Shown here one piece after another: positions 1,290-46,143 of a DNA stretch of 64,000 bases (positions within the stretch are counted from its first letter, which is position 1; each line of letters begins with the position of its first letter). The notes beneath the pieces are model-generated. The model worked only from the letters and a program-made list of their open reading frames with translations. It had not been told where the DNA came from and did no database searches. This DNA comes from Rhizobium sp. C1 (GTDB taxonomy: Bacteria; Pseudomonadota; Alphaproteobacteria; Rhizobiales; Rhizobiaceae), in the NCBI RefSeq assembly GCF_021026335.1, contig NZ_JAJNCY010000005.1, forward strand, positions 186,001 to 250,000. The letters are read 5' to 3'. A program made the position numbers and the translations under genes.

Positions 1290-2363
1290 TCACCGCTTCC
1301 CATGCATCAGCATGGCAATCACGAAAAACGCGCCGATGGAACTCGTCACCACGCCAACCGGCAGTTCCTGCGGCGGGAGCAACGTGCGGGCGAGCAGATC
1401 GCTGCCGAGCATGAGCGCGGCGCCGATCAGGCTGCAAACGATGGCGAGGCGCGCATGCAGCGGCCCGGTGAACGCGCGGGCCACATGCGGCACCATGAGG
1501 CCGATAAAGCCGATGACGCCGGTGATCGAGACGAGGAGCGCGGTCGAGAAACTGGCAACGAGGAAGGTGACGTTACGCAGGCGCTTGACCGGCACACCGA
1601 GGCTTTCGGCCGTCTGTTCACCACCCAGCAGCGCGTCGAGCTGGCGATGTCGGGCGAGCGTATAGGCAAGCGCCAACCCCGCCCCGGCGAGCCCGATGCC
1701 GATATTGTGCCAGCTGGAGAGACCCAAGCCCCCCATGGTCCAGAAGAGGACCGAATGGGCCGCCCGCTGATCGCCGGAAAAGACGAGATAATTGGTGAGC
1801 GCCGTGAAGAGAAACGACACGGCAAGGCCTGCCAGCACCAGCCGTTCATTGCCCTGCCCCTCTGTCCGCCGCAAGAGAAACAGAACCGCCCCCGTCGCAC
1901 ACATGCCCCCGGTGAAGGCCGCGATCGGCAGGGTGAAGACGCCGAGCTGATCGCCGACACGGGTGATGACCGCCACAGCCCCCGCCGCCGCGCCCGCCGA
2001 GAGGCCGAAGAGGAAGGGATCGGCCAGATCATTGCGGGTGATCGTCTGGAGCAGCAGGCCGATGACGGCAAGACCTGCCCCCACCGCAATCGCCACCAGC
2101 GCGCGCGGCAGGCGCAGGTCGACAATGATGCGGTCGATCGGCGTCGCGGCGCTCTCGTGGCTGAGACCCACGGCGCGGGCAATGGCGCCCACGACCTGAT
2201 CCAGCGGGATCACAGTCGAGCCGTAGGCCACTGAAATGCATGCGAGGATAACGACGGCAAGGATCGCCGCCGTCACAATAAGAGCAAAGCGCGCTGTCGG
2301 ATTTGGAGCGTTGCTCGATCTGACTTTGTCAGATCGACGCTCCAATTCTTTTGTTTGGCGCAT
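1290..2363 (-). CDS. btuC: BtuC-like FecCD-family ABC transporter permease (cobalamin uptake)
   Basis: This 357-aa polytopic inner-membrane permease is hydrophobic from about residue 25 to the end. It carries the FecCD-family signature around GVIGFIGLMVPHVARAF before the C-terminal helices. The family imports siderophores, heme or vitamin B12. The vitamin B12 assignment rests on the cobalamin riboswitch that heads the operon. It is the last gene of the set, after the ATPase and the binding protein. The N-terminal ~25 residues are charged and atypical: codons for KELERRSDKVRSSNAP form a near-perfect DNA palindrome (2303-2345), which looks like an inserted repeat. The start codon lies in another inverted repeat (2358-2404). 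The ATG at 2363 has a GAGG about 11 nt upstream; a later start is possible. Confidence 0.82.
   Translation of the reverse strand: MRQTKELERRSDKVRSSNAPNPTARFALIVTAAILAVVILACISVAYGSTVIPLDQVVGAIARAVGLSHESAATPIDRIIVDLRLPRALVAIAVGAGLAVIGLLLQTITRNDLADPFLFGLSAGAAAGAVAVITRVGDQLGVFTLPIAAFTGGMCATGAVLFLLRRTEGQGNERLVLAGLAVSFLFTALTNYLVFSGDQRAAHSVLFWTMGGLGLSSWHNIGIGLAGAGLALAYTLARHRQLDALLGGEQTAESLGVPVKRLRNVTFLVASFSTALLVSITGVIGFIGLMVPHVARAFTGPLHARLAIVCSLIGAALMLGSDLLARTLLPPQELPVGVVTSSIGAFFVIAMLMHGKR
2303..2345. repeat. TTGGAGCG palindromic element inside the btuC reading frame
   Basis: The outer arms TTGGAGCGT and ACGCTCCAA and the inner arms CGATCTGAC and GTCAGATCG pair around a TTT loop, with a 4-nt bulge in the left arm. 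The outer arms match two intergenic palindromes at 31126-31169 and 35496-35539, suggesting one element family. Here it lies within the coding sequence and is translated in frame as part of the BtuC N-terminus. Confidence 0.6.
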
Positions 2364-3368: not shown

Positions 3369-4142
3369 TCAGTGATGGGTCATGGGAATGTCGAAAACCG
3401 TCAGCTCGCGGTTTTCATGCGGATGCGGCAGGCGCAGGAGATCGATGCCGAAGACCTCGCGCACCAGATCGCGCGACAGGGTCTCGTCGGCAGAAATCAG
3501 CCGCCCGTCCCGCATGACGGCCACGCGGGTGGCGAAATCCGGTACGAGGTTGAGATCGTGGAGAACGGCGACCACCGTCAGATCGAGTGCCGCAACCAGC
3601 GCCAGAAGCGCGCCGCGGGCGCGCGGGTCGAGATGGTTCGTCGGCTCATCGAGGAAGAGAATGCGCGGCTCCTGCGCCAGCGCGCGGGCGATCTGCGCCC
3701 GCTGGCGCTCGCCGCCAGAGAGAAGGCCCATTTCGCGCTTTGCAAGGCCTGAAAGCCCCGTGCGCTCCATGGCCGCGTCGATCAGATCAGCCTCTTCGGC
3801 GCGGGTGCGGCGCGTGGCATGCGGTATGCGGCCGAGCGCCACATAGTCGCGTACCGAAATGCGCCGGTCCGGCTGGTCGGCCTGTCCAACGACGGCGATC
3901 TGGCGCGCCCGGTCAATGGGTTTCAGCGCTTGAAGCGGCTGACCGTCGAGCAGGATGGAACCCGAGGACGGGCGGCTCATGCCGCACATCAGCTTCAGCA
4001 GCGTCGTCTTCCCCGCGCCGTTCGGGCCGATGATCGCCAGACGATCGCCGGTGCGGATATCGAGCGACACGGCATCGACGATGGCGGCGCCACCGGCGGC
4101 ATGAAAGGTCAGGTTGTGGGCTGCAAGCGCGGTCAAAATCAT
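3369..4142 (-). CDS. btuD: BtuD-like ABC transporter ATP-binding protein (cobalamin uptake)
   Basis: This 257-aa ATPase drives the BtuC-type permease. Walker A GPNGAGKTT is near residue 40, the signature LLSGGERQRAQIARAL near 142, Walker B ILFLDEPTNHLD near 162, and the switch histidine lies in AVLHDLN. The ATG at 4142 with GAGAG upstream gives the usual family N-terminus; an in-frame extension to 4232 would run toward the riboswitch and lacks support. It is the first gene after the cobalamin riboswitch and is followed 16 nt later by the binding-protein gene. Confidence 0.85.
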   Translation of the reverse strand: MILTALAAHNLTFHAAGGAAIVDAVSLDIRTGDRLAIIGPNGAGKTTLLKLMCGMSRPSSGSILLDGQPLQALKPIDRARQIAVVGQADQPDRRISVRDYVALGRIPHATRRTRAEEADLIDAAMERTGLSGLAKREMGLLSGGERQRAQIARALAQEPRILFLDEPTNHLDPRARGALLALVAALDLTVVAVLHDLNLVPDFATRVAVMRDGRLISADETLSRDLVREVFGIDLLRLPHPHENRELTVFDIPMTHH

Positions 4143-4254
4143 CTCATCTCTCGGCAATCGGCGCTGGAGAAGGATGATCGGCCATGAACGCGCCAGATCG
4201 CGCGTGATGGTCATCAACGCTTCCCGGCACACCCCGTCCGGTTGCTACGTGTCT

Positions 4255-4441
4255 TGACGGCAGGTCTCCTGGCTTGCGGGTCGAAAGCTCTGCCAGCCTT
4301 CCCGGCCGTTTGGGCCAGTGGCGTCGTTGACAGAGCCTCACCGCTCACAGTTGCGGGGGCAGCCATGGTTTCGGCCCCATTCGGGTCGTCCTCACCATGT
4401 TCCCTATTAATCCTTCCGGCTTGGCCTTCAGGAACCGTCAC
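4255..4441 (-). promoter_or_regulatory. Cobalamin riboswitch upstream of btuD-btuF-btuC
   Basis: Read on the minus strand, the segment holds the class hallmarks in order: a GGGAA-containing stem, GCTGCCCCCGCAACTGTGA in the core, and the B12 box GCCAGGAGACCTGCC (4259-4273) at the 3' end. The first downstream gene starts ~110 nt later. Cobalamin binding is known in this class to lower expression of downstream transport or synthesis genes. Confidence 0.92.
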
Positions 4442-4481
4442 CCCCAGTTATGCGCCGCGCGGAACGCTTGTCAAGCGCGCA

Positions 4482-18933: not shown

Positions 18934-19647
18934 TCAATGCAGCCCGAGATAGCTCCGCTCGATCTGCGGATCGTTGGCAAGATCCGCCGCCTTCCCGCTC
19001 ATGGTGATTTCGCCCAGCTCCATCACATAGGCCCGGTCGGCGGCGTTGAGCGCGGCGCGCGCGTTCTGCTCGACCAGCAGGATCGCCACGCCATCCTTGC
19101 GCAGGTCTTCGATGATGGTGAAGATGTCGGCGACGATGCGCGGGGCCAAGCCCAGGCTCGGTTCGTCCAGCATCAGCACCTTAGGACCAGCCATCAGCGC
19201 GCGGCCCATGGCGAGCATCTGGCGCTCGCCACCGGACATGGTGCCGGCCTCCTGGCGGCGGCGTTCCTTGAGGCGCGGGAAGCGGTCAAACACGCCAGCC
19301 ATGCGCGCCTGCGCCTCCCGCTCGGAGAAGCGCACGGCACCGAGGCGCAGATTGTCCTCGACGCTCATGGAGGAGAAAAGCTCGCGCCGCTCGGACACGA
19401 GCGACAGGCCGGCGGCCACACGGTCCTCGACCTCCAGCCTGTAGAACGGAGCGTCGTCGAATGTCTGTTCGCCGACCGCGGGCAGGATGCCCATCGCGGC
19501 GTTGAGCAAGGTCGATTTGCCGGCGCCATTCGCGCCGATGACGGTGACGATCTCGCCGGCGAAGACCTCCAGCGAGACGCCGCGCACGGCCTCGACCTTG
19601 CCATAGGAAACTGAGAGGTTGGAGAGAGAAAGCAGAGGCTTGCTCAT
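18934..19647 (-). CDS. livF: LivF-like ABC transporter ATP-binding protein
   Basis: This 237-aa ATPase has Walker A GANGAGKSTLL near residue 36, signature MSGGERQMLAMGRAL near 134 and Walker B VLMLDEPSLGLAP. The LivF-type C-terminal region ends RSYLGLH, the usual end of LivF proteins. It drives uptake with the fused LivM-LivG protein and LivH. It overlaps the upstream fusion gene by 4 bp and is the last gene of the set. Confidence 0.88.
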   Translation of the reverse strand: MSKPLLSLSNLSVSYGKVEAVRGVSLEVFAGEIVTVIGANGAGKSTLLNAAMGILPAVGEQTFDDAPFYRLEVEDRVAAGLSLVSERRELFSSMSVEDNLRLGAVRFSEREAQARMAGVFDRFPRLKERRRQEAGTMSGGERQMLAMGRALMAGPKVLMLDEPSLGLAPRIVADIFTIIEDLRKDGVAILLVEQNARAALNAADRAYVMELGEITMSGKAADLANDPQIERSYLGLH

Positions 19648-21458
19648 GCTTCGGCACCTCCGGCAACGGTGGATGACGTCTGCTTGGGCTCGGCGGCACC
19701 ACCGAGATAGGCTTCGAGAACGGCGGGGTGCGAGCGGATGACATCCGGCGGCCCTTCGGCGATCTTGGTGCCGAAATCGAGCACAACGATATGATCGGTC
19801 AGTCCCATGACGAAGCCCATGTCGTGTTCGACGAGAAGCAGGCTCATGCCTTCCGAGCGTAGCTGGCTAAGAAGCTCCGAAAGCTGGCCCTTTTCGAAAT
19901 GGCGAAGACCAGCTGCGGGTTCGTCGAGCAAAAGCAGCGACGGATTCATCGTCAGCGCACGGGCGATCTCGACGATGCGCTGCTGGCCAAGTGCCAGGCT
20001 ACCGGCCGGCTTGTGCATGTGTTCGGCAAGGCCGACGCGCGTAATCTGCCGCGCGGCCTCGGCGAACAGGGCCGCCTCCTCGGCACGATCGGTGCGGATG
20101 AGCGCCGAGAGCAGGTCCTTGCGGCCGCGCAGGTGTCCACCGAGTGCCACATTCTCCAGAACCGACATGTCCGGCAGGAGCTTCACATGCTGGAAGGTGC
20201 GGGCGATGCCCAGTCCCGCGATCCGCTGCTGGCCAATGCCGGAGATCGCTTGGCCGGCGAAGCTGACCGCACCGGAACTCAAGGACAGGACGCCCGTGAT
20301 CAGATTGAAGGTCGTGCTCTTTCCGGCGCCGTTCGGGCCGATGAGGGCAACGATCTCGCCGGATTTGACGCCGAAGTTGACAGCGTTGACTGCTGTCAAC
20401 CCGCCGAACTTCTTGGTGGCGTCCTGCACCTTCAGAATCTCGCTGCCGCGTGGCACCGGCATGTCGCGGCCGGTCAGCGGTTGCGCATCAGTCGGGATGC
20501 TGCGCGGCTTTGCCTCGGGCAGGATGCGCTGCACCAGCGGCCAGAGGCCGTCGGGTGCCACCTGCAGCAGCACGATCAGCAGGACGCCGAAGACGATCGG
20601 TTCATAGAGCGCGCTGTCGGTGATCAGCGTCGGCATGACGCGCTGGATGACGTCGCGCAGTTCGGTGATGATGAAGGCCCCGGCAATCGCGCCCCAGACC
20701 TGCCCTGCTCCACCAACAACCGCCATGAACAGATAACTGATACCGGCATTCAGGTTGAACGGGCTCGGCGTCACCGCGCTCTGGAAGAAGGCGTAGAGCC
20801 AGCCGGACAGGCCCGCCAGCACGGCGGCATAGACGAAGACGATGAGCTTGGCCTGGCTCGCCGAAATGCCGAAGGCGCCCGCCATGGTCGAACCGCGGCG
20901 CAGCGACCGGATCGCACGACCGACGCGGCTGTCGAGCAGGTTCAGCGTGGCAATGCCACAAATAAGCAGCGCGCCCCAGATCACGGCATGCAGCCGCGCC
21001 GGTTCGTGGAAGCTGACGGAGCCGACGGTGAGCGGCGGGATGGAGCTGATACCGTCGTGGCGGCCCAAGAGTTCCAGCTGGCCGAAGAGATAGTAGAGCG
21101 CCAAGCCCCAGGCGATGGTGCCGAGCGGCAGATAATGACCGGCCAGACGCACGGTGACGAAGCCGAGAAGCAGAGCGGCGAGTGCGGAAACGGCGAGCGC
21201 CACGGGAAGCGTCGCAATCGGGCTCCAGCCATATTGCGTGGTGAGCACGGCGGCCGAATAGGCGCCGAAACCGGCAAGCGCCGCCTGCCCGAAGGAGGTC
21301 AGCCCGCCGACGCCGGTCAACACGACGAGGCCGATGGCGACGATGGCCGCCAGCCCGATATTGTCGAGCAGGATGATCCAGAAGGGCGGGAAGCCGGGAA
21401 CGAACGGGGCCAGGATGATGATGGCGGCGAAGAGGCAGAGGGCGATACGGTTGGTCAT
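19644..21458 (-). CDS. Fused LivM permease-LivG ATPase of a branched-chain-amino-acid-type transporter
   Basis: This 604-aa protein joins two subunits that are usually separate. Residues ~1-305 are a LivM-type permease with about eight to ten membrane helices and the GLTSFGQAALAGFGAYS motif. Residues ~340-595 are a LivG-type ATPase with Walker A GPNGAGKSTTFNLITG, the QQRIVEIARAL signature region, Walker B LLLDEPAAGL and the switch His in LLVEHDMGFV. The linker near 305-340 is Pro-rich (PEAKPRSIPTDAQPLTG). The frame is continuous. Such fusions are known in Alphaproteobacteria. The gene lies 3 bp after livH and overlaps livF. Confidence 0.88.
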   Translation of the reverse strand: MTNRIALCLFAAIIILAPFVPGFPPFWIILLDNIGLAAIVAIGLVVLTGVGGLTSFGQAALAGFGAYSAAVLTTQYGWSPIATLPVALAVSALAALLLGFVTVRLAGHYLPLGTIAWGLALYYLFGQLELLGRHDGISSIPPLTVGSVSFHEPARLHAVIWGALLICGIATLNLLDSRVGRAIRSLRRGSTMAGAFGISASQAKLIVFVYAAVLAGLSGWLYAFFQSAVTPSPFNLNAGISYLFMAVVGGAGQVWGAIAGAFIITELRDVIQRVMPTLITDSALYEPIVFGVLLIVLLQVAPDGLWPLVQRILPEAKPRSIPTDAQPLTGRDMPVPRGSEILKVQDATKKFGGLTAVNAVNFGVKSGEIVALIGPNGAGKSTTFNLITGVLSLSSGAVSFAGQAISGIGQQRIAGLGIARTFQHVKLLPDMSVLENVALGGHLRGRKDLLSALIRTDRAEEAALFAEAARQITRVGLAEHMHKPAGSLALGQQRIVEIARALTMNPSLLLLDEPAAGLRHFEKGQLSELLSQLRSEGMSLLLVEHDMGFVMGLTDHIVVLDFGTKIAEGPPDVIRSHPAVLEAYLGGAAEPKQTSSTVAGGAEA

Positions 21459-22614: not shown

Positions 22615-23763
22615 TTACTTGATCAGCTCGAACTTGCCGTCCTTGACGGTGAGCATGATGCGGGCGCGCTCGTCGACGCCATAGCGATCCGTGGCGGTAA
22701 AGTTATAAACGCCCTGCGAGGCGCCGATATCCTTTTCGGTGATCAGCGCATCGGCGATGGCTTCGCGGAATTCCGGCGTGCCGGGCTTGGCCTTCTTCAA
22801 GGCGACCGGAACAACGCGCTTCAGCACTTCGAACGCATCCCACGGATGACCGGCGAACTGGTTGCGCGGACCGAATTTCGGCTCATAGGCGGCGACCAGA
22901 GCGAGACCAGGCGCCTTGGTGAGCGCGCTGTCCGGTTGACCCTCGGGCAGCATGTCCGGACCCGAAGCCATGATCACGCCTTCGGCAGCCTTGCCGGCAA
23001 TGCGGATGAAGTCCTGCGAGACGGCGCCATGGGTCTGGTAGATCAGGCCCTTGTAGCCGCGTTCGCGCAGCGTCGACTGCGGCAGGGCCGCACCCGTGCC
23101 GGAAGCGGCAACGAGAACGGCATCCGGCTTGGCGGCCACCAGCTTCAGCACCTGACCGGTGACGGAGGTGTCGGCGCGGGCATAGCGCTCATCGGCAACG
23201 AGCTTCAGCCCATACTTGTCTGCGGCGGCCTTGAACTGACCGAGCCAGAGATCGCCCCAGCTGTCGGAAAAGCCGATCATGCCAACCGTCTTCACACCGC
23301 TCTTCTTCATGTGGTCGAAGATGCCGGCGGCCATGAGCGGCACCGGCTGCGGCATGATCACCGTATAGCGCTCCTTGCCCGGCGTGACCGGCATCGGGCC
23401 GAGACCGAAATGCGGGACCTTGGCGTCGAAGGCGACAGCCGAAACGGCAATCGTCGGCGGTGTGGTCGAAGAACCGAGGATCACGTCGACCTTGTCGTCG
23501 TTGATCAAACGCTTGGCGTTCGTAGTCGCCTGTGTCGGATCACCGGCATCGTCGAGAACGATCAGCTTCACCTTGAGGCCGCCGATTTCGGTCGGAACGA
23601 GCGTCAGCGCATTCTTTTCCGGAATGCCGAGCGCTGCGGCCGGACCAGTGGTCGAGAGCGTCGCTCCGACGGTCAGAACCCCATCTTCGGCTTTTACGAC
23701 CGCGGCGGACAGGCCAAGCGCTGCAACGCAGGCTGCGGCCGCAATTGAGAATTTGAATTTCAT
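22615..23763 (-). CDS. Periplasmic solute-binding protein, LivK/amino-acid type
   Basis: This 382-aa type I periplasmic binding protein begins with a signal peptide, KFKFSIAAAACVAALGLSAA, ending around VKAEDG. The start at 23763 follows GGGAGGAG, a strong RBS, and removes an 18-residue extension of the open frame. The mature part opens GVLTVGATLSTTGPAAALGI and contains VDVILGSSTTPPTIAVSAVA, typical of LivK/AmiC-like proteins. It is the first gene of the transport operon. A hairpin at 22569-22589 separates it from livH. No catabolic gene nearby gives away the substrate. Confidence 0.86.
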   Translation of the reverse strand: MKFKFSIAAAACVAALGLSAAVVKAEDGVLTVGATLSTTGPAAALGIPEKNALTLVPTEIGGLKVKLIVLDDAGDPTQATTNAKRLINDDKVDVILGSSTTPPTIAVSAVAFDAKVPHFGLGPMPVTPGKERYTVIMPQPVPLMAAGIFDHMKKSGVKTVGMIGFSDSWGDLWLGQFKAAADKYGLKLVADERYARADTSVTGQVLKLVAAKPDAVLVAASGTGAALPQSTLRERGYKGLIYQTHGAVSQDFIRIAGKAAEGVIMASGPDMLPEGQPDSALTKAPGLALVAAYEPKFGPRNQFAGHPWDAFEVLKRVVPVALKKAKPGTPEFREAIADALITEKDIGASQGVYNFTATDRYGVDERARIMLTVKDGKFELIK

Positions 23764-32428: not shown

Positions 32429-32671
32429 TCATGCCTCGCCATAGCCGCGCCGGCGCTTGGCCCTGAGCAGTCGCGCAAGAAGTGCTGCCGCCTCTTCCCG
32501 CTTGGCGAAATCATGCAGCTTGACCTGGCCCCGCGTACCGATCCGCCCCCAATGCCGCCGCAGCCGCACATCGCCGAACAGTGTCGGTTCGATGGAGAGC
32601 ATGTAGAAGCGTGCCATGTTTTTGGCCGGATCGCGCCGTTCCAGATAGATATCGTCTGAGATCGTGGTCAT
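32429..32671 (-). CDS. WGR-domain protein
   Basis: This 80-aa protein is a single WGR domain: YLERRDPAKNMARFYMLSIE, then FGDVRLRRHWGRIGTRGQVK with the signature Trp-Gly-Arg, and a basic C-terminal helix (RLLRAKRRRGYGEA). WGR domains occur in poly(ADP-ribose) polymerases and as small stand-alone proteins, and probably bind nucleic acid ends. The ATG at 32671 gives the family length. It is convergent with idhA and shares the terminator region. Confidence 0.85.
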   Translation of the reverse strand: MTTISDDIYLERRDPAKNMARFYMLSIEPTLFGDVRLRRHWGRIGTRGQVKLHDFAKREEAAALLARLLRAKRRRGYGEA

Positions 32672-32790
32672 TGACCAAGAGTCGCCGATCACGACTCCCG
32701 CGTCCAATGAGACTTATGAATCCAAAAGCTTAGACTGATTCACGGACGTGATGTTTTGGTTCGAACGGAGTTTTAAGGGAGCCAGAAACG

Positions 32791-32940
32791 AAAAAGCCTG
32801 CCGCGGGAGGAGGTGCGGCAGGCTTTCGAAATTCAGAACAGCGACTGGGAGGAGGAGTGCCGCTGCTCTATTTTCAGGCCCTTCGGGAGGAGAGAAGGCC
32901 TGAAGCTCGAAGCGGGCGGGAGGAGGTGCCGCGCTTCAAT
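32791..32940 (-). ncRNA. Predicted trans-acting sRNA with four anti-Shine-Dalgarno hairpins (alpha-r14/'cuckoo'-like)
   Basis: On the minus strand four consecutive stem-loops all expose CTCCTCCC or CCTCCTCCC in the loop: 32937-32909 (arms GAAGCGCGGC/GCCCGCTTC), 32902-32875 (CAGGCCTTC/GAAGGGCCTG), 32865-32839 (CAGCGGCAC/GTCGCTG, bulged) and 32823-32796 (GCCTGCCGC/GCGGCAGGC, perfect 9 bp). The last is followed by TTTTTCG at 32795-32789, a Rho-independent terminator. The stems differ in sequence while the loops are constant, so structure with fixed loops is under selection. Loops complementary to ribosome-binding sites are the hallmark of the alphaproteobacterial alpha-r14 sRNAs, which include S. 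meliloti NfeR1, linked to osmoadaptation. The 5' end is not mapped; two tandem shorter RNAs are possible. Confidence 0.8.
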
Positions 32941-32980
32941 GAGATAAATTTAACCCGGGGCCGGCTCGACCGCCAGCGCT

Positions 32981-33021
32981 TTTGCTGCATTGCAGCCATG
33001 CAAATGTTGCAATGCAGCAAA
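32981..33021. promoter_or_regulatory. Perfect 14-bp inverted repeat between the sRNA and osmoprotectant operon
   Basis: TTTGCTGCATTGCA (32981-32994) and TGCAATGCAGCAAA (33008-33021) are perfect inverted arms with a 13-bp spacer that itself holds TGCA and TTGCA half sites. The left part includes CTGCATTGCAG, of the CTGC-N3-GCAG type reported for PhaR of polyhydroxyalkanoate metabolism. It ends ~44 bp from the first sRNA hairpin and has no T-run, so it is more likely an operator than a terminator. Confidence 0.55.
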
Positions 33022-33279: not shown

Positions 33280-34197
33280 ATGAACAGGCTTTTCAAACTG
33301 GCCGGCACGCTGGCTTTTGCAGCATTCGCATCCATGCAGGCCATGGCGGCCGACAGCGTTGTCGTATCGTCTAAAATCGATACGGAGGGCGGGGTGCTCG
33401 GCAATATCATCCTGCAGGCCCTGAAGGCGAATAATATCCCGGTGGAAAGCAAGATCCAGCTGGGCGCAACACCTATCGTCCGCCAGGCGATCACACAGGG
33501 GCAGATCGATATCTATCCGGAATATACCGGCAACGCCGCGTTCTTCTTCAACAAGGGCGATCTTCCGGTCTGGAACAAGGCCGACGAGGGTTATGCCAAA
33601 GCGAAGGAACTGGATTACGACGCCAACAAGATCGTCTGGCTGACGCCTGCCAAGGCCAACAACACCTGGGCGATCGCGGTACGCGGTGATGTGGCGGATG
33701 CCAACAAGCTTTCGACACTCTCCGACTTCGGCGCCTATGTCGCCAAGGGTGGTCAGGTGAAGCTCGCGGCCTCCTCCGAATTCGTGACGTCACCTTCAGC
33801 GCTTCCCGCCTTCGAAAAGGCCTATGGTTTCAAGATGAAACCCGATCAGCTGATCACGCTGTCCGGCGGCGACACGGCCGCCACGATCTCGGCGGCCGCA
33901 CAGCAGACCTCGGGCGCGAACGCCGCGATGGTCTACGGCACCGATGGCGGCATCGCGCCGTCCGGTCTGAAGGTGATGGAAGACGACAAGGGTGTGCAAC
34001 CGGTCTATCTGCCCACACCGATCATCCGCGAGGAGAAGCTGAAGCAATATCCGAAGATTGCCGATATCCTGAAGCCGATCTTCGAGGCGCTGGATCTTCA
34101 GACGCTCCAGACGTTGAACGGTCGCGTTCAGGTCGGCGGCGAGCCGGCGAATGCAGTGGCTGCCGATTTCCTGTCCTCGAAGGGCTTCGTCAAGTAA
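33280..34197 (+). CDS. Osmoprotectant ABC transporter substrate-binding protein (YehZ/OsmX-like)
   Basis: This 305-aa periplasmic protein of the OpuAC/ProX superfamily starts with signal peptide NRLFKLAGTLAFAAFASMQA ending near AMAADS. The mature part opens VVVSSKIDTEGGVLGNIILQ and holds QIDIYPEYTGNAAFFFNKGD, typical of YehZ/OsmF-type glycine-betaine binders. The ATG at 33280 follows AGGGGA; the open frame upstream has no signal-like sequence. It is first in a four-gene operon and lies ~340 bp from the predicted sRNA. Confidence 0.85.
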   Translation: MNRLFKLAGTLAFAAFASMQAMAADSVVVSSKIDTEGGVLGNIILQALKANNIPVESKIQLGATPIVRQAITQGQIDIYPEYTGNAAFFFNKGDLPVWNKADEGYAKAKELDYDANKIVWLTPAKANNTWAIAVRGDVADANKLSTLSDFGAYVAKGGQVKLAASSEFVTSPSALPAFEKAYGFKMKPDQLITLSGGDTAATISAAAQQTSGANAAMVYGTDGGIAPSGLKVMEDDKGVQPVYLPTPIIREEKLKQYPKIADILKPIFEALDLQTLQTLNGRVQVGGEPANAVAADFLSSKGFVK

Positions 34198-38580: not shown

Positions 38581-39846
38581 ATGAACACGACTTTCAAGAC
38601 GTCGCTTGCTGCGCTCGTCTTCAGCACGTCGAGCGTGCTGGCGATGGCCGCGGCCCAGGCCAAGGAAATCACCGTCTGGTGCTGGGATCCCAATTTCAAC
38701 GTCGCCATCATGAAGGAAGCCGGCGCGATCTATTCCAAGACGCATCCGGACATCAAGATCAACGTCGTCGACTTCGCCAAGGCCGACGTTGAAGCCAAGC
38801 TGCAGACGACGCTCGCCTCCGGCGTGACGACCAGCCTGCCGGATATTGTTCTCATCGAAGACTACGGCGCACAGAAATATATCCAGTCCTTCCCCGGCGC
38901 CTTCGCGTCGATGAACGACGTTGTCGATTACTCCAAGTTCGCGCCCTACAAGGTCAAGCTCGCCACCGTTGATGGCAAGACCTATTCCATGCCCTTCGAT
39001 TCCGGCGTGACCGGCCTCTACTACCGCAAGGACTACTTGGAACAGGCCGGCTACAAGCCGGAAGACATGCAGAACCTGACCTGGGACAAGTATATCGAGA
39101 TCGGCAAGAAGGTCTCCGAAAAGACCGGCAAGAAGATGATGGGTCTCGACCCCAACGATGCCGGCCTGATCCGCATCATGATGCAGTCGGCTGGCGGCTG
39201 GTATTTCAACGACAAGGGTGAGCTCAACATCACCGGCAACGAAGCCCTCAAGGCAGCTCTCAAGACCGAAGGCAAGCTGATTGCCTCCGGCATCACCAAG
39301 CCGGCCTCCGGCTGGTCGAACTGGGTCAGCACTTTCACCTCAGGCGATGTCGCGACCGTCATCACCGGCGTGTGGATCACCGGCACGATCAAGGCGACGA
39401 AGGACCAGGAAAACAAGTGGGGCGTAGCTCCGATCCCGAAGCTTGATGTGAAGGGCGCAACGGATGCCTCCAACCTCGGCGGCTCGAGCTGGTACGTGCT
39501 GGCTTCTTCGCCGGAAAAGAAGGAAGCCATCGACTTCCTGAACTCGGTCTATGGCAAGGATGTTGACTTCTACCAGAAGATCCTCGTCAATCAGGGCGCT
39601 GTCGGCTCGCTCATGGAAGCCCGTAAGGGTGCAGCCTATGAAACCGCCGACAAGTTCTTCGGCGGCGAAAAGATCTGGCAGAAGTTTGCCGACTGGCTCT
39701 CGAAGGTGCCGTCCGTGAACTACGGCGTTTTCACCAACGAAGTCGACTCCGCCGTGGCAGCCCAGCTGCCGGCGCTCGGCAAGGGTGGCGATGTCGACGC
39801 GGCGCTGAAGGCGATCGAGGCGCAGGCCAAGTCTTCGATGCAGTAA
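38581..39846 (+). CDS. lacE: Sugar ABC transporter substrate-binding protein (LacE-like)
   Basis: This 421-aa family 1 extracellular binding protein has a signal peptide from NTTFKTSLAALVFSTSSVLA to AAAQAKE, followed by ITVWCWDPNFN. The typical hinge strands FDSGVTGLYYRKDYLEQAGY and SSWYVLASSPEKKEAIDFL are present. It delivers the sugar, by context lactose, to LacF-LacG. The ATG follows GGGAGG. A bulged hairpin lies between it and lacF, as often found after binding-protein genes. Confidence 0.87.
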   Translation: MNTTFKTSLAALVFSTSSVLAMAAAQAKEITVWCWDPNFNVAIMKEAGAIYSKTHPDIKINVVDFAKADVEAKLQTTLASGVTTSLPDIVLIEDYGAQKYIQSFPGAFASMNDVVDYSKFAPYKVKLATVDGKTYSMPFDSGVTGLYYRKDYLEQAGYKPEDMQNLTWDKYIEIGKKVSEKTGKKMMGLDPNDAGLIRIMMQSAGGWYFNDKGELNITGNEALKAALKTEGKLIASGITKPASGWSNWVSTFTSGDVATVITGVWITGTIKATKDQENKWGVAPIPKLDVKGATDASNLGGSSWYVLASSPEKKEAIDFLNSVYGKDVDFYQKILVNQGAVGSLMEARKGAAYETADKFFGGEKIWQKFADWLSKVPSVNYGVFTNEVDSAVAAQLPALGKGGDVDAALKAIEAQAKSSMQ

Positions 39847-45360: not shown

Positions 45361-46143
45361 ATGACGGCGACATTCGATTGGGCAAAGGCATTCTCGCTCG
45401 AGGGCAAGCGGGCGCTGGTCACGGGTGGAGCGGCCGGCATCGGCCAGGCGATTGCTGTGGCGCTCGCTGCCTCCGGCGCAGACGTCGCCTTCACCACCCA
45501 TTCGCGCCCCGGCGATGAAACCGCCGCAGCCATCGCTGCCCACGGCCGCAAGGCGAAGGACGTCCATGCCGATCTCGGCGCGCTCGACGCCGCCGGTGCT
45601 GAAGCGCTGATCGAGAAGCTTGAGGCCGACTTCGGCGGCATCGACATTCTTGTCAACAATGCCGGCATCATCCGCCGCGCCGATCTGCCCGTGCATAGCG
45701 AGGAAGACTGGCGCGCGGTGCTTTCCACCAATCTCGATTCCGTCTGGTTCCTGTCGCAGGCCGCCTCCCGCCGCATGCAGGACCGCAAACACGGGCGCAT
45801 CATCAACATCGCCTCGCTGCTCTCCTTCCAGGGCGGCATCCGCGTTCCGGGCTACACGGCCTCGAAGCATGCCGTCGCCGGGCTGACGAAGGCACTCGCC
45901 AACGAGCTGGCCCCGCATGGCGTGACGGTCAATTCCATCGCGCCCGGATATATCGCCACCGACAACACGACCGCGCTGCGCGCCGATCCGGACCGCTCGC
46001 GCCAGATCCTCGAGCGCATCCCCGCCGGTCGCTGGGGCGAGGCCTCCGACATCGCCGGCACCGCCGTTTTCCTGGCGTCGCCGGCCGCCAATTACGTGAC
46101 CGGCGCGATCCTCAATGTCGATGGCGGCTGGCTGGCACGCTGA
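45361..46143 (+). CDS. Short-chain dehydrogenase/reductase (KduD-like layout)
   Basis: This 260-aa classical SDR has the Rossmann motif TGGAAGIGQAIA near residue 20, the NNAGI motif near 100 and YTASKHAVAGLTKALANELA with catalytic Tyr/Lys near 162. The opening [13 protein letters not shown] and the closing AVFLASPAANYVTGAILNVDGG are typical of KduD and gluconate 5-dehydrogenases, but the substrate cannot be fixed. The ATG follows GGGAGG. Its stop is 2 bp from the 3' end of the convergent CoA ligase gene. Confidence 0.83.
   Translation: MTATFDWAKAFSLEGKRALVTGGAAGIGQAIAVALAASGADVAFTTHSRPGDETAAAIAAHGRKAKDVHADLGALDAAGAEALIEKLEADFGGIDILVNNAGIIRRADLPVHSEEDWRAVLSTNLDSVWFLSQAASRRMQDRKHGRIINIASLLSFQGGIRVPGYTASKHAVAGLTKALANELAPHGVTVNSIAPGYIATDNTTALRADPDRSRQILERIPAGRWGEASDIAGTAVFLASPAANYVTGAILNVDGGWLAR

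Follow-up and report, generated by a model that had tools for sequence, protein, structure and literature searches.

Described relatives of the RNA

The small RNAs SmelA075 and SmelA099 were described in 2011 as consisting of three and four hairpins, respectively, each with the loop CCUCCUCCC, and were proposed to form one family in which the number of hairpin modules is variable (PMC3927594). SmelA099 (smrA6) was placed by a deep-sequencing survey at 1328175-1328334 on the minus strand of S. meliloti pSymA, with a length of 160 nt (PMC2873474), and the four-hairpin model has been named RFM_SmelA099 in the literature. For NfeR1, previous studies reported validated ABC binding-protein targets, redundant motifs, silencing of ntrB, and predicted targets that are mostly transport proteins (PMC7143759, PMC10746234), as well as an osmoadaptation phenotype (PMC7143759). 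The NfeR1 promoter carries TGCA-N6-GCAT at -72 to -60 (PMC10746234).

The sequence GCAT-N3-TG-N3-T has been proposed as the consensus of the regulator LsrB/VtlR (PMC7486931, PMC8844928), and a box of this kind lies at -61 to -49 of PabcR1 (PMC8844928). In Agrobacterium, LsrB was termed a thiol-based redox switch, and lsrB was reported to be consistently in an operon with trxB across Rhizobiales (PMC11975290).

Structure of the four-hairpin RNA

In the window, i.e., the whole 64,000-nt stretch of DNA analyzed here, the minus strand from 32941 to 32789 corresponds to a predicted RNA of about 153 nt with four hairpins, each of which carries CTCCTCCC. Hairpin 1 (32907-32939) has its loop word at 32918-32925, hairpin 2 (32873-32904) at 32885-32892, hairpin 3 (32834-32870) at 32847-32854, and hairpin 4 (32789-32827) at 32805-32812. 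Six copies of CTCCTCCC were counted on both strands of the whole window against 2.72 expected, and six were reached in 5 of 100 shuffles; for four copies clustered at this density, a simple binomial estimate gives an expectation of about 7.5e-9 per window. It is the clustering, rather than the copy number in the window, that is improbable.

The stretch 32941-32789 folds with -71.8 kcal/mol, which is 29 kcal/mol below the mean of shuffled sequences in which the four loop words were fixed in place (-42.3 +/- 4.3), and none of the 500 shuffles was as low. The mean pairing probability was 0.003, 0.078, 0.000, and 0.000 for the four loop words and 0.77 for the remaining RNA; in the minimum-energy structure a single base at one end of loop 2 is paired, and the other three loop words are unpaired throughout. 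In an alignment of 33 distinct four-hairpin sequences, which was fitted to the structure and is thus biased in its favor, 96.7% of the cells pair, and 28 of the 40 pairs changed on both sides, compared with four to nine when the partners were slid. All six modelled pairs of hairpin 2 changed on both sides somewhere in this alignment. The first-pass annotation had described four hairpins with one constant loop and variable stems, and both descriptions hold.

Hairpin 4, with a run of T at its end, is a putative intrinsic terminator by its fold and sequence; its loop has 10 bases, and a simple terminator scan limited to loops of up to 8 reported none at this place. The interval first annotated (32791-33021; fold z = -6.6) covers the RNA and extends to 33021 because a palindrome at 32981-33021 was included, which carries no such loop and lies upstream of the predicted start.

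Family assignment

The Rfam model of alpha-r14 (RF02344) matched 32789-32910 with 97.8 bits (gathering score 58.8; model positions 1-123), aligning hairpins 2 to 4. This model comprises three hairpins, and hairpin 1, which lies outside it, is therefore extra. The models of CcsR1 (RF02791, 36.2 bits against a gathering score of 65.3), which shares the CCUCCUCCC motif, and of ar7 (RF02342, 37.2 bits against 60) remained below their thresholds. A constant unpaired CCUCCUCCC on variable stems, as in alpha-r14, is present, with the exception that hairpin 2 carries UCUCCUCCC, which departs from the full word by a single base. The window RNA resembles NfeR1 and alpha-r14 in its hairpins with an anti-Shine-Dalgarno (aSD) loop and hypervariable stems, in the aSD loop of the terminator hairpin, and in an LsrB-type motif upstream, while it has one more hairpin at the 5' side than their three.

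Four consecutive aSD-loop hairpins are the trait of the SmelA099 subtype, and they were found here. From 11 genus sequences we built R1, a model for RNAs with four loops. It scored 171 bits over positions 1-159 on the window RNA, which had partly served to build it, and the published SmelA099 stretch of pSymA matched the full model with 136 bits. SmelA099 also has a nearly identical terminator hairpin and shares GCAT-N3-TG-N3-T upstream, starting at -59, but it differs in the sequence of stem 2 and lacks an exact TGCA-N6-GCAT. Loop 1 of SmelA099 starts 16 nt past its published 5' end; the same spacing, applied by analogy to the window RNA, predicts a start at 32941.

An alpha-r14/"cuckoo" type had been suggested from the raw sequence, and the covariance models confirm this reading, so that the RNA is filed in the alpha-r14/SmelA099 group. 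That every hairpin including the terminator carries the loop, which had been singled out as special, is correct as an observation but not distinctive, because the RF02344 consensus already shows the loop in the terminator hairpin; nor are four hairpins distinctive, because this form was reported in PMC3927594. The window RNA is a real, conserved small RNA of a family and subtype known from root-nodule bacteria and related organisms, and mostly an ordinary one. What is new here is its placing, the finding that its adjacency to an OsmF importer is not conserved, and a near-constant LsrB/VtlR box on the four-loop form.

Distribution

Three further such loci were found in the genome that holds the window. 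One with four loops (contig C17, 107.1 bits with RF02344) and one with three (contig C1, 112.1 bits) are each present in all six genus genomes, as is another three-loop locus, which scores 55.5 bits here and 49.9-55.5 bits across the genus (L004, L022-L026), below the alpha-r14 gathering score. The latter has TGCA-N6-GCAT about 300 nt upstream, and in the two copies inspected (L004 and L022) a short ORF just upstream showed no Pfam match (no DUF1127). We disregarded three more RF02344 matches in the same genome, which scored 14.7-17.4 bits with E above 1. The six genus genomes, our own included, hold four loci each, except G003 with three; assignment of the loci by loop spacing and alignment shows that G003 lacks the window locus. 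Loss of the loops in close relatives, named earlier as a finding that would speak against the RNA, was looked for and not seen, as all five genus copies, the window included, keep four exact loops.

At E <= 0.001, RF02344 matched 117 of the 121 sampled genomes of the bacterial family, with scores above the cut-off in 111. The three-loop pattern occurred in 47 of 61 sampled genomes, compared with one of 61 for the reversed pattern. R1 matched 23 of the 121 genomes at E <= 1e-18 and, by the listed scores, reached at least 100 bits in 17. A 237-nt query comprising the RNA and the palindrome matched 562 of 72,556 plasmid records, and 133 of these matches cover at least 80% of the query. Of five of the best plasmid homologs, which come from Ensifer, Rhizobium, and Agrobacterium, all but one carry four exact loops, and the remaining one has three.

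Several loci depart from a single cluster of three or four loops. Two or three clusters stand a few hundred bases apart at seven loci (L028, L029, L031, L034, L037, L042, and L146), and overlapping triple matches at C2:1130449-1130618 of genome G035 suggest, from the listing alone, a run of five CTCCTCCC loops. In three plasmid homologs (L206, L207, and L208, from Ensifer, Rhizobium, and Agrobacterium) a ligD gene for a non-homologous end-joining ligase lies within about 1 kb.

Upstream region and putative control by LsrB

The palindrome at 32981-33021 is a perfect inverted repeat with 14-bp arms. Its core is shared by the genus copies and the five plasmid homologs, whereas the arms are not conserved over their full length. 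Two motif matches on the minus strand lie inside the palindrome, namely the LsrB/VtlR box GCAT-N3-TG-N3-T at 32989-33001 (-60 to -48 from the predicted start) and TGCA-N6-GCAT, the LsrB-type motif of the NfeR1 promoter, at 32998-33011 (-70 to -57), and both boxes occur in all five plasmid homologs examined. To judge from these features, the palindrome is most likely candidate operator DNA. The abcR1 promoter has its LsrB/VtlR box almost equally far from the start, whereas AbcR1 itself is a different RNA, which interacts with Hfq (PMC8844928).

No sigma-70 consensus pair was found upstream of the RNA. At the expected places there are just a -35-like CTGGCG (32971-32976, minus strand), in a block conserved in genus and plasmid copies, and TTAAAT (32948-32953, minus strand), a putative -10 element by position only. 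The window RNA thereby differs from NfeR1, which has a consensus -35/-10 pair; CTTAGAC-N17-CTATAT, a trait of the published alpha-r14/NfeR1 homologs and not of the Rfam model, is absent here. It also lacks the NtrC motif TGC-N11-GCA at -95 to -121, the sole nearby match being inside the palindrome. According to PMC10746234, the NtrC signature is not evident in Agrobacterium or Brucella promoters either.

Among 30 R1-matched loci examined, 24 have exactly four loops, and GCAT-N3-TG-N3-T lies 75-83 nt upstream of loop 1 in 22 of these (16 of 18 if the genus is left out). The box is missing at L239, where, by eye, one base of the TG pair differs, and at L232, which lies behind a DUF1127 gene. Among 75 clusters with at least three loops, a set that overlaps with the former one, the box occurred 60-90 nt before loop 1 in 21 clusters and 136-230 nt before it in none; the compared sequences are related, and these counts are therefore not independent. 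The 21 comprise seven of nine four-loop and 14 of 66 three-loop clusters, so the box is not family-wide. In a binned count of 73 clusters, all 21 occurrences were at 72-87 nt upstream of loop 1, and the remaining 28 bins, each 8 nt wide, were empty.

Against control windows, the VtlR form of the box was found in 15 of 69 clusters and in 11 of 138 controls. When the count was repeated on 75 clusters, there were no matches in the upstream controls and 11 in the downstream controls, which without exception came from loci that have two or three clusters. Six of these 11 sit 78-82 nt before the next cluster and therefore belong to its promoter; the other five are unexplained. The pattern TGCA-N6-GCAT was rejected as a family-wide mark, with 7 of 69 clusters compared with 13 of 138 control windows and no enrichment by count; the pattern by itself is about as frequent in the window as expected (three copies against 3.4).

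In the same genome, a 300-aa protein with LysR-family matches adjoins trxB. No LsrB model was among the best 25 of its 55 NCBIfam matches, all of which were below cut-off, so the name LsrB rests on gene order. Binding of LsrB upstream of the window RNA is putative and suggested by the motif.

If the four-hairpin cuckoo RNAs form a branch of their own within the LsrB/VtlR regulon throughout the family, which travels on plasmids together with its operator and shuts down nutrient uptake, a proposal to which we give about an even chance, then the operator of the abcR1 type, kept at a fixed distance in nearly all four-loop loci, would mean that a redox-sensing LysR regulator drives multi-loop RNAs, beside AbcR1 and NfeR1. 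The near-constant box in many genera offers a testable link between a redox-responsive regulator and RNAs that block ribosome-binding sites, some of them on plasmids. In the literature searched, supplements aside, we did not find the LsrB/VtlR box described on four-loop RNAs; a 2021 study of small RNAs and a LysR regulator by Eisfeld et al. may in part anticipate it.

Predicted targets and mode of action

We regard it as highly probable that the window RNA is a four-hairpin alpha-r14/"cuckoo" RNA of the SmelA099 subtype, activated by LsrB, which acts as a redundant blocker of Shine-Dalgarno regions, mainly of transporter mRNAs. In this reading, the trxB-linked LysR protein would be LsrB; it would bind the upstream box and switch on transcription from a promoter whose -35 element is poor, and the transcript, about 153 nt long, would end at hairpin 4. 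With its four equivalent loops, the RNA could then bind Shine-Dalgarno regions that have the sequence GGGAGGAG or one close to it, and translation would be blocked, above all that of ABC transporter mRNAs, in the manner reported for the three-loop relative NfeR1. Four loops would mean redundancy or a higher dose, not four specificities.

The published NfeR1 results are the main basis of this target prediction, and by the same analogy they support the silencing of ribosome-binding sites proposed in the first-pass annotation (PMC7143759, PMC10746234). The companion suggestion of transporter mRNAs as targets is plausible from the NfeR1 work, and the starts in the window lean the same way without reaching significance. 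The lowest pairing energy in the window was obtained for the start of an ABC binding protein (22615-23763, -19.0 kcal/mol), and another ABC binding protein (38581-39846, -16.7 kcal/mol), a dehydrogenase (45361-46143, -16.7 kcal/mol), and an ABC permease/ATPase (19644-21458, -16.1 kcal/mol) also pair strongly. The bias towards ABC genes (13 ABC compared with 18 other genes) gave a one-sided p = 0.15; when osmF is given its best alternative start, p falls to 0.06. These tests used a greedy list of 54 ORFs that includes false ones, with starts picked by best pairing, of which 31 were labelled (13 ABC and 18 other, one of the latter by NCBIfam alone); 12 ORFs with no Pfam match and 11 unscanned ones were omitted.

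Genome-wide, GGGAGGAG-N3-10-ATG occurred 44 times, compared with nine for the reversed control, and a repeat element accounts for at least nine of the 44. In the first 30 rows, which represent 29 distinct starts, 16 products of at least 61 aa were scanned, giving five transporter parts (four ABC and one MFS) and 11 others. For ntrB, the start site pairs with -11.6 kcal/mol, between the 1st (-14.0) and 5th (-10.9) percentiles of random 20-mers; this gene is the best match of a family search, under its cut-off (190 compared with 240 bits), and the value is compatible with ntrB being a target here but is no proof of it.

The repeat itself is about 150-200 nt long and is present in at least eight copies in the same genome (G000; C1:146771, 389600, 657998, and 778609; C3:95776; C5:104456; C9:3558; C17:237690; loci L177, L179, L181, L182, L187, L190, L193, and L202), with a core that holds GGGAGGAG, the perfect complement of the loop of the small RNA. 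Three copies tested had no Rfam match at gathering score. Judged by this complementarity, the repeat, if transcribed, could be a decoy for the RNA.

The mixed set of genes with perfect sites would also fit an RNA whose loops mimic the anti-Shine-Dalgarno tail of 16S rRNA and lower initiation generally, with no transporter focus. The loop contains the CCUCC core of 16S, the genes with perfect sites code not only for transporters but also for dehydrogenases, an AMP-binding enzyme, and a transketolase, and the ABC bias in the window is not significant. However, only a few start sites in the window pair far better than random, and NfeR1 has validated specific targets, with predicted ones mostly transport proteins (PMC7143759, PMC10746234). 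We consider such a broad damper of translation unlikely, though it keeps more weight than the two explanations discussed below.

Neighboring genes and other explanations

Divergently from the RNA, osmF (33280-34197, plus strand) encodes a glycine betaine substrate-binding protein, which matched the equivalog NF049931 with 500.2 bits (cut-off 400) and is followed by permease, ATPase, and permease genes. The gap from the predicted 5' end of the RNA to the ATG of osmF is 338 bp, close to the ~340 bp first annotated. On the other side, a WGR-domain ORF (32429-32671, minus strand; PF05406, tblastn) lies downstream of the RNA and, together with an inositol 2-dehydrogenase gene, is kept in all five genus copies.

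This arrangement had been taken to make the importer a partner of the RNA, and the two could be one locus-specific unit for osmoadaptation, with a shared operator and silencing of the importer mRNA. The short divergent spacing, the OsmF match, and the osmoadaptation phenotype of NfeR1 (PMC7143759) agree with it, and G003, the sole genus genome without the RNA, has no osmF either. However, osmF adjoins the RNA in three of the five genus copies (G000, G004, and G005), while some 5 kb separate the two in G002, and in G001 they are on different contigs. Among the best 80 of 515 relatives of osmF, two loci are adjacent to such an RNA (L054 and L056); in Rhizobium sp. C4 (L055) the RNA is 5 kb away, and L067 has a weakly similar three-loop cluster. 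No cluster of at least two exact loop words was found at the other 76 loci in flanks of up to 6 kb, which were shortened in eight of the 80. Within this set, the closest osmF records are from Rhizobium sp. C4 and two Rhizobiales isolates. The osmF start site pairs with the RNA at -7.4 kcal/mol, a value weaker than the 5th percentile of random sites (-10.9; mean -5.1).

Thus neither synteny nor pairing energy bears out the osmoprotectant linkage. Adjacency to osmF is not a conserved trait, the importer is not counted in the system, and its neighborhood is probably incidental; we regard the osmoadaptation unit as quite improbable.

Least probable is a CcsR-like RNA processed from the 3'-UTR of a DUF1127 mRNA, since, although cuckoo-type clusters follow DUF1127 genes elsewhere in the bacterial family (five of six scanned ORFs matched PF06568), the two nearest upstream minus-strand ORFs of at least 80 aa have no Pfam match, the CcsR1 model stays below gathering, and the window locus has its own conserved box, on which grounds a CcsR-type origin of the window copy was rejected.

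At five loci (L051, L136, L157, L163, and L232) the loop clusters begin 26-53 nt past the end of a DUF1127 gene (PF06568), and such DUF1127-linked clusters are a 3'-UTR-like form in the family beside the free-standing one. Elsewhere in the window, a cobalamin riboswitch (4242-4454, minus strand, 129 bits) lies near genes for an ABC ATPase (3369-4232, minus strand) and a FecCD permease (1290-2363, minus strand).
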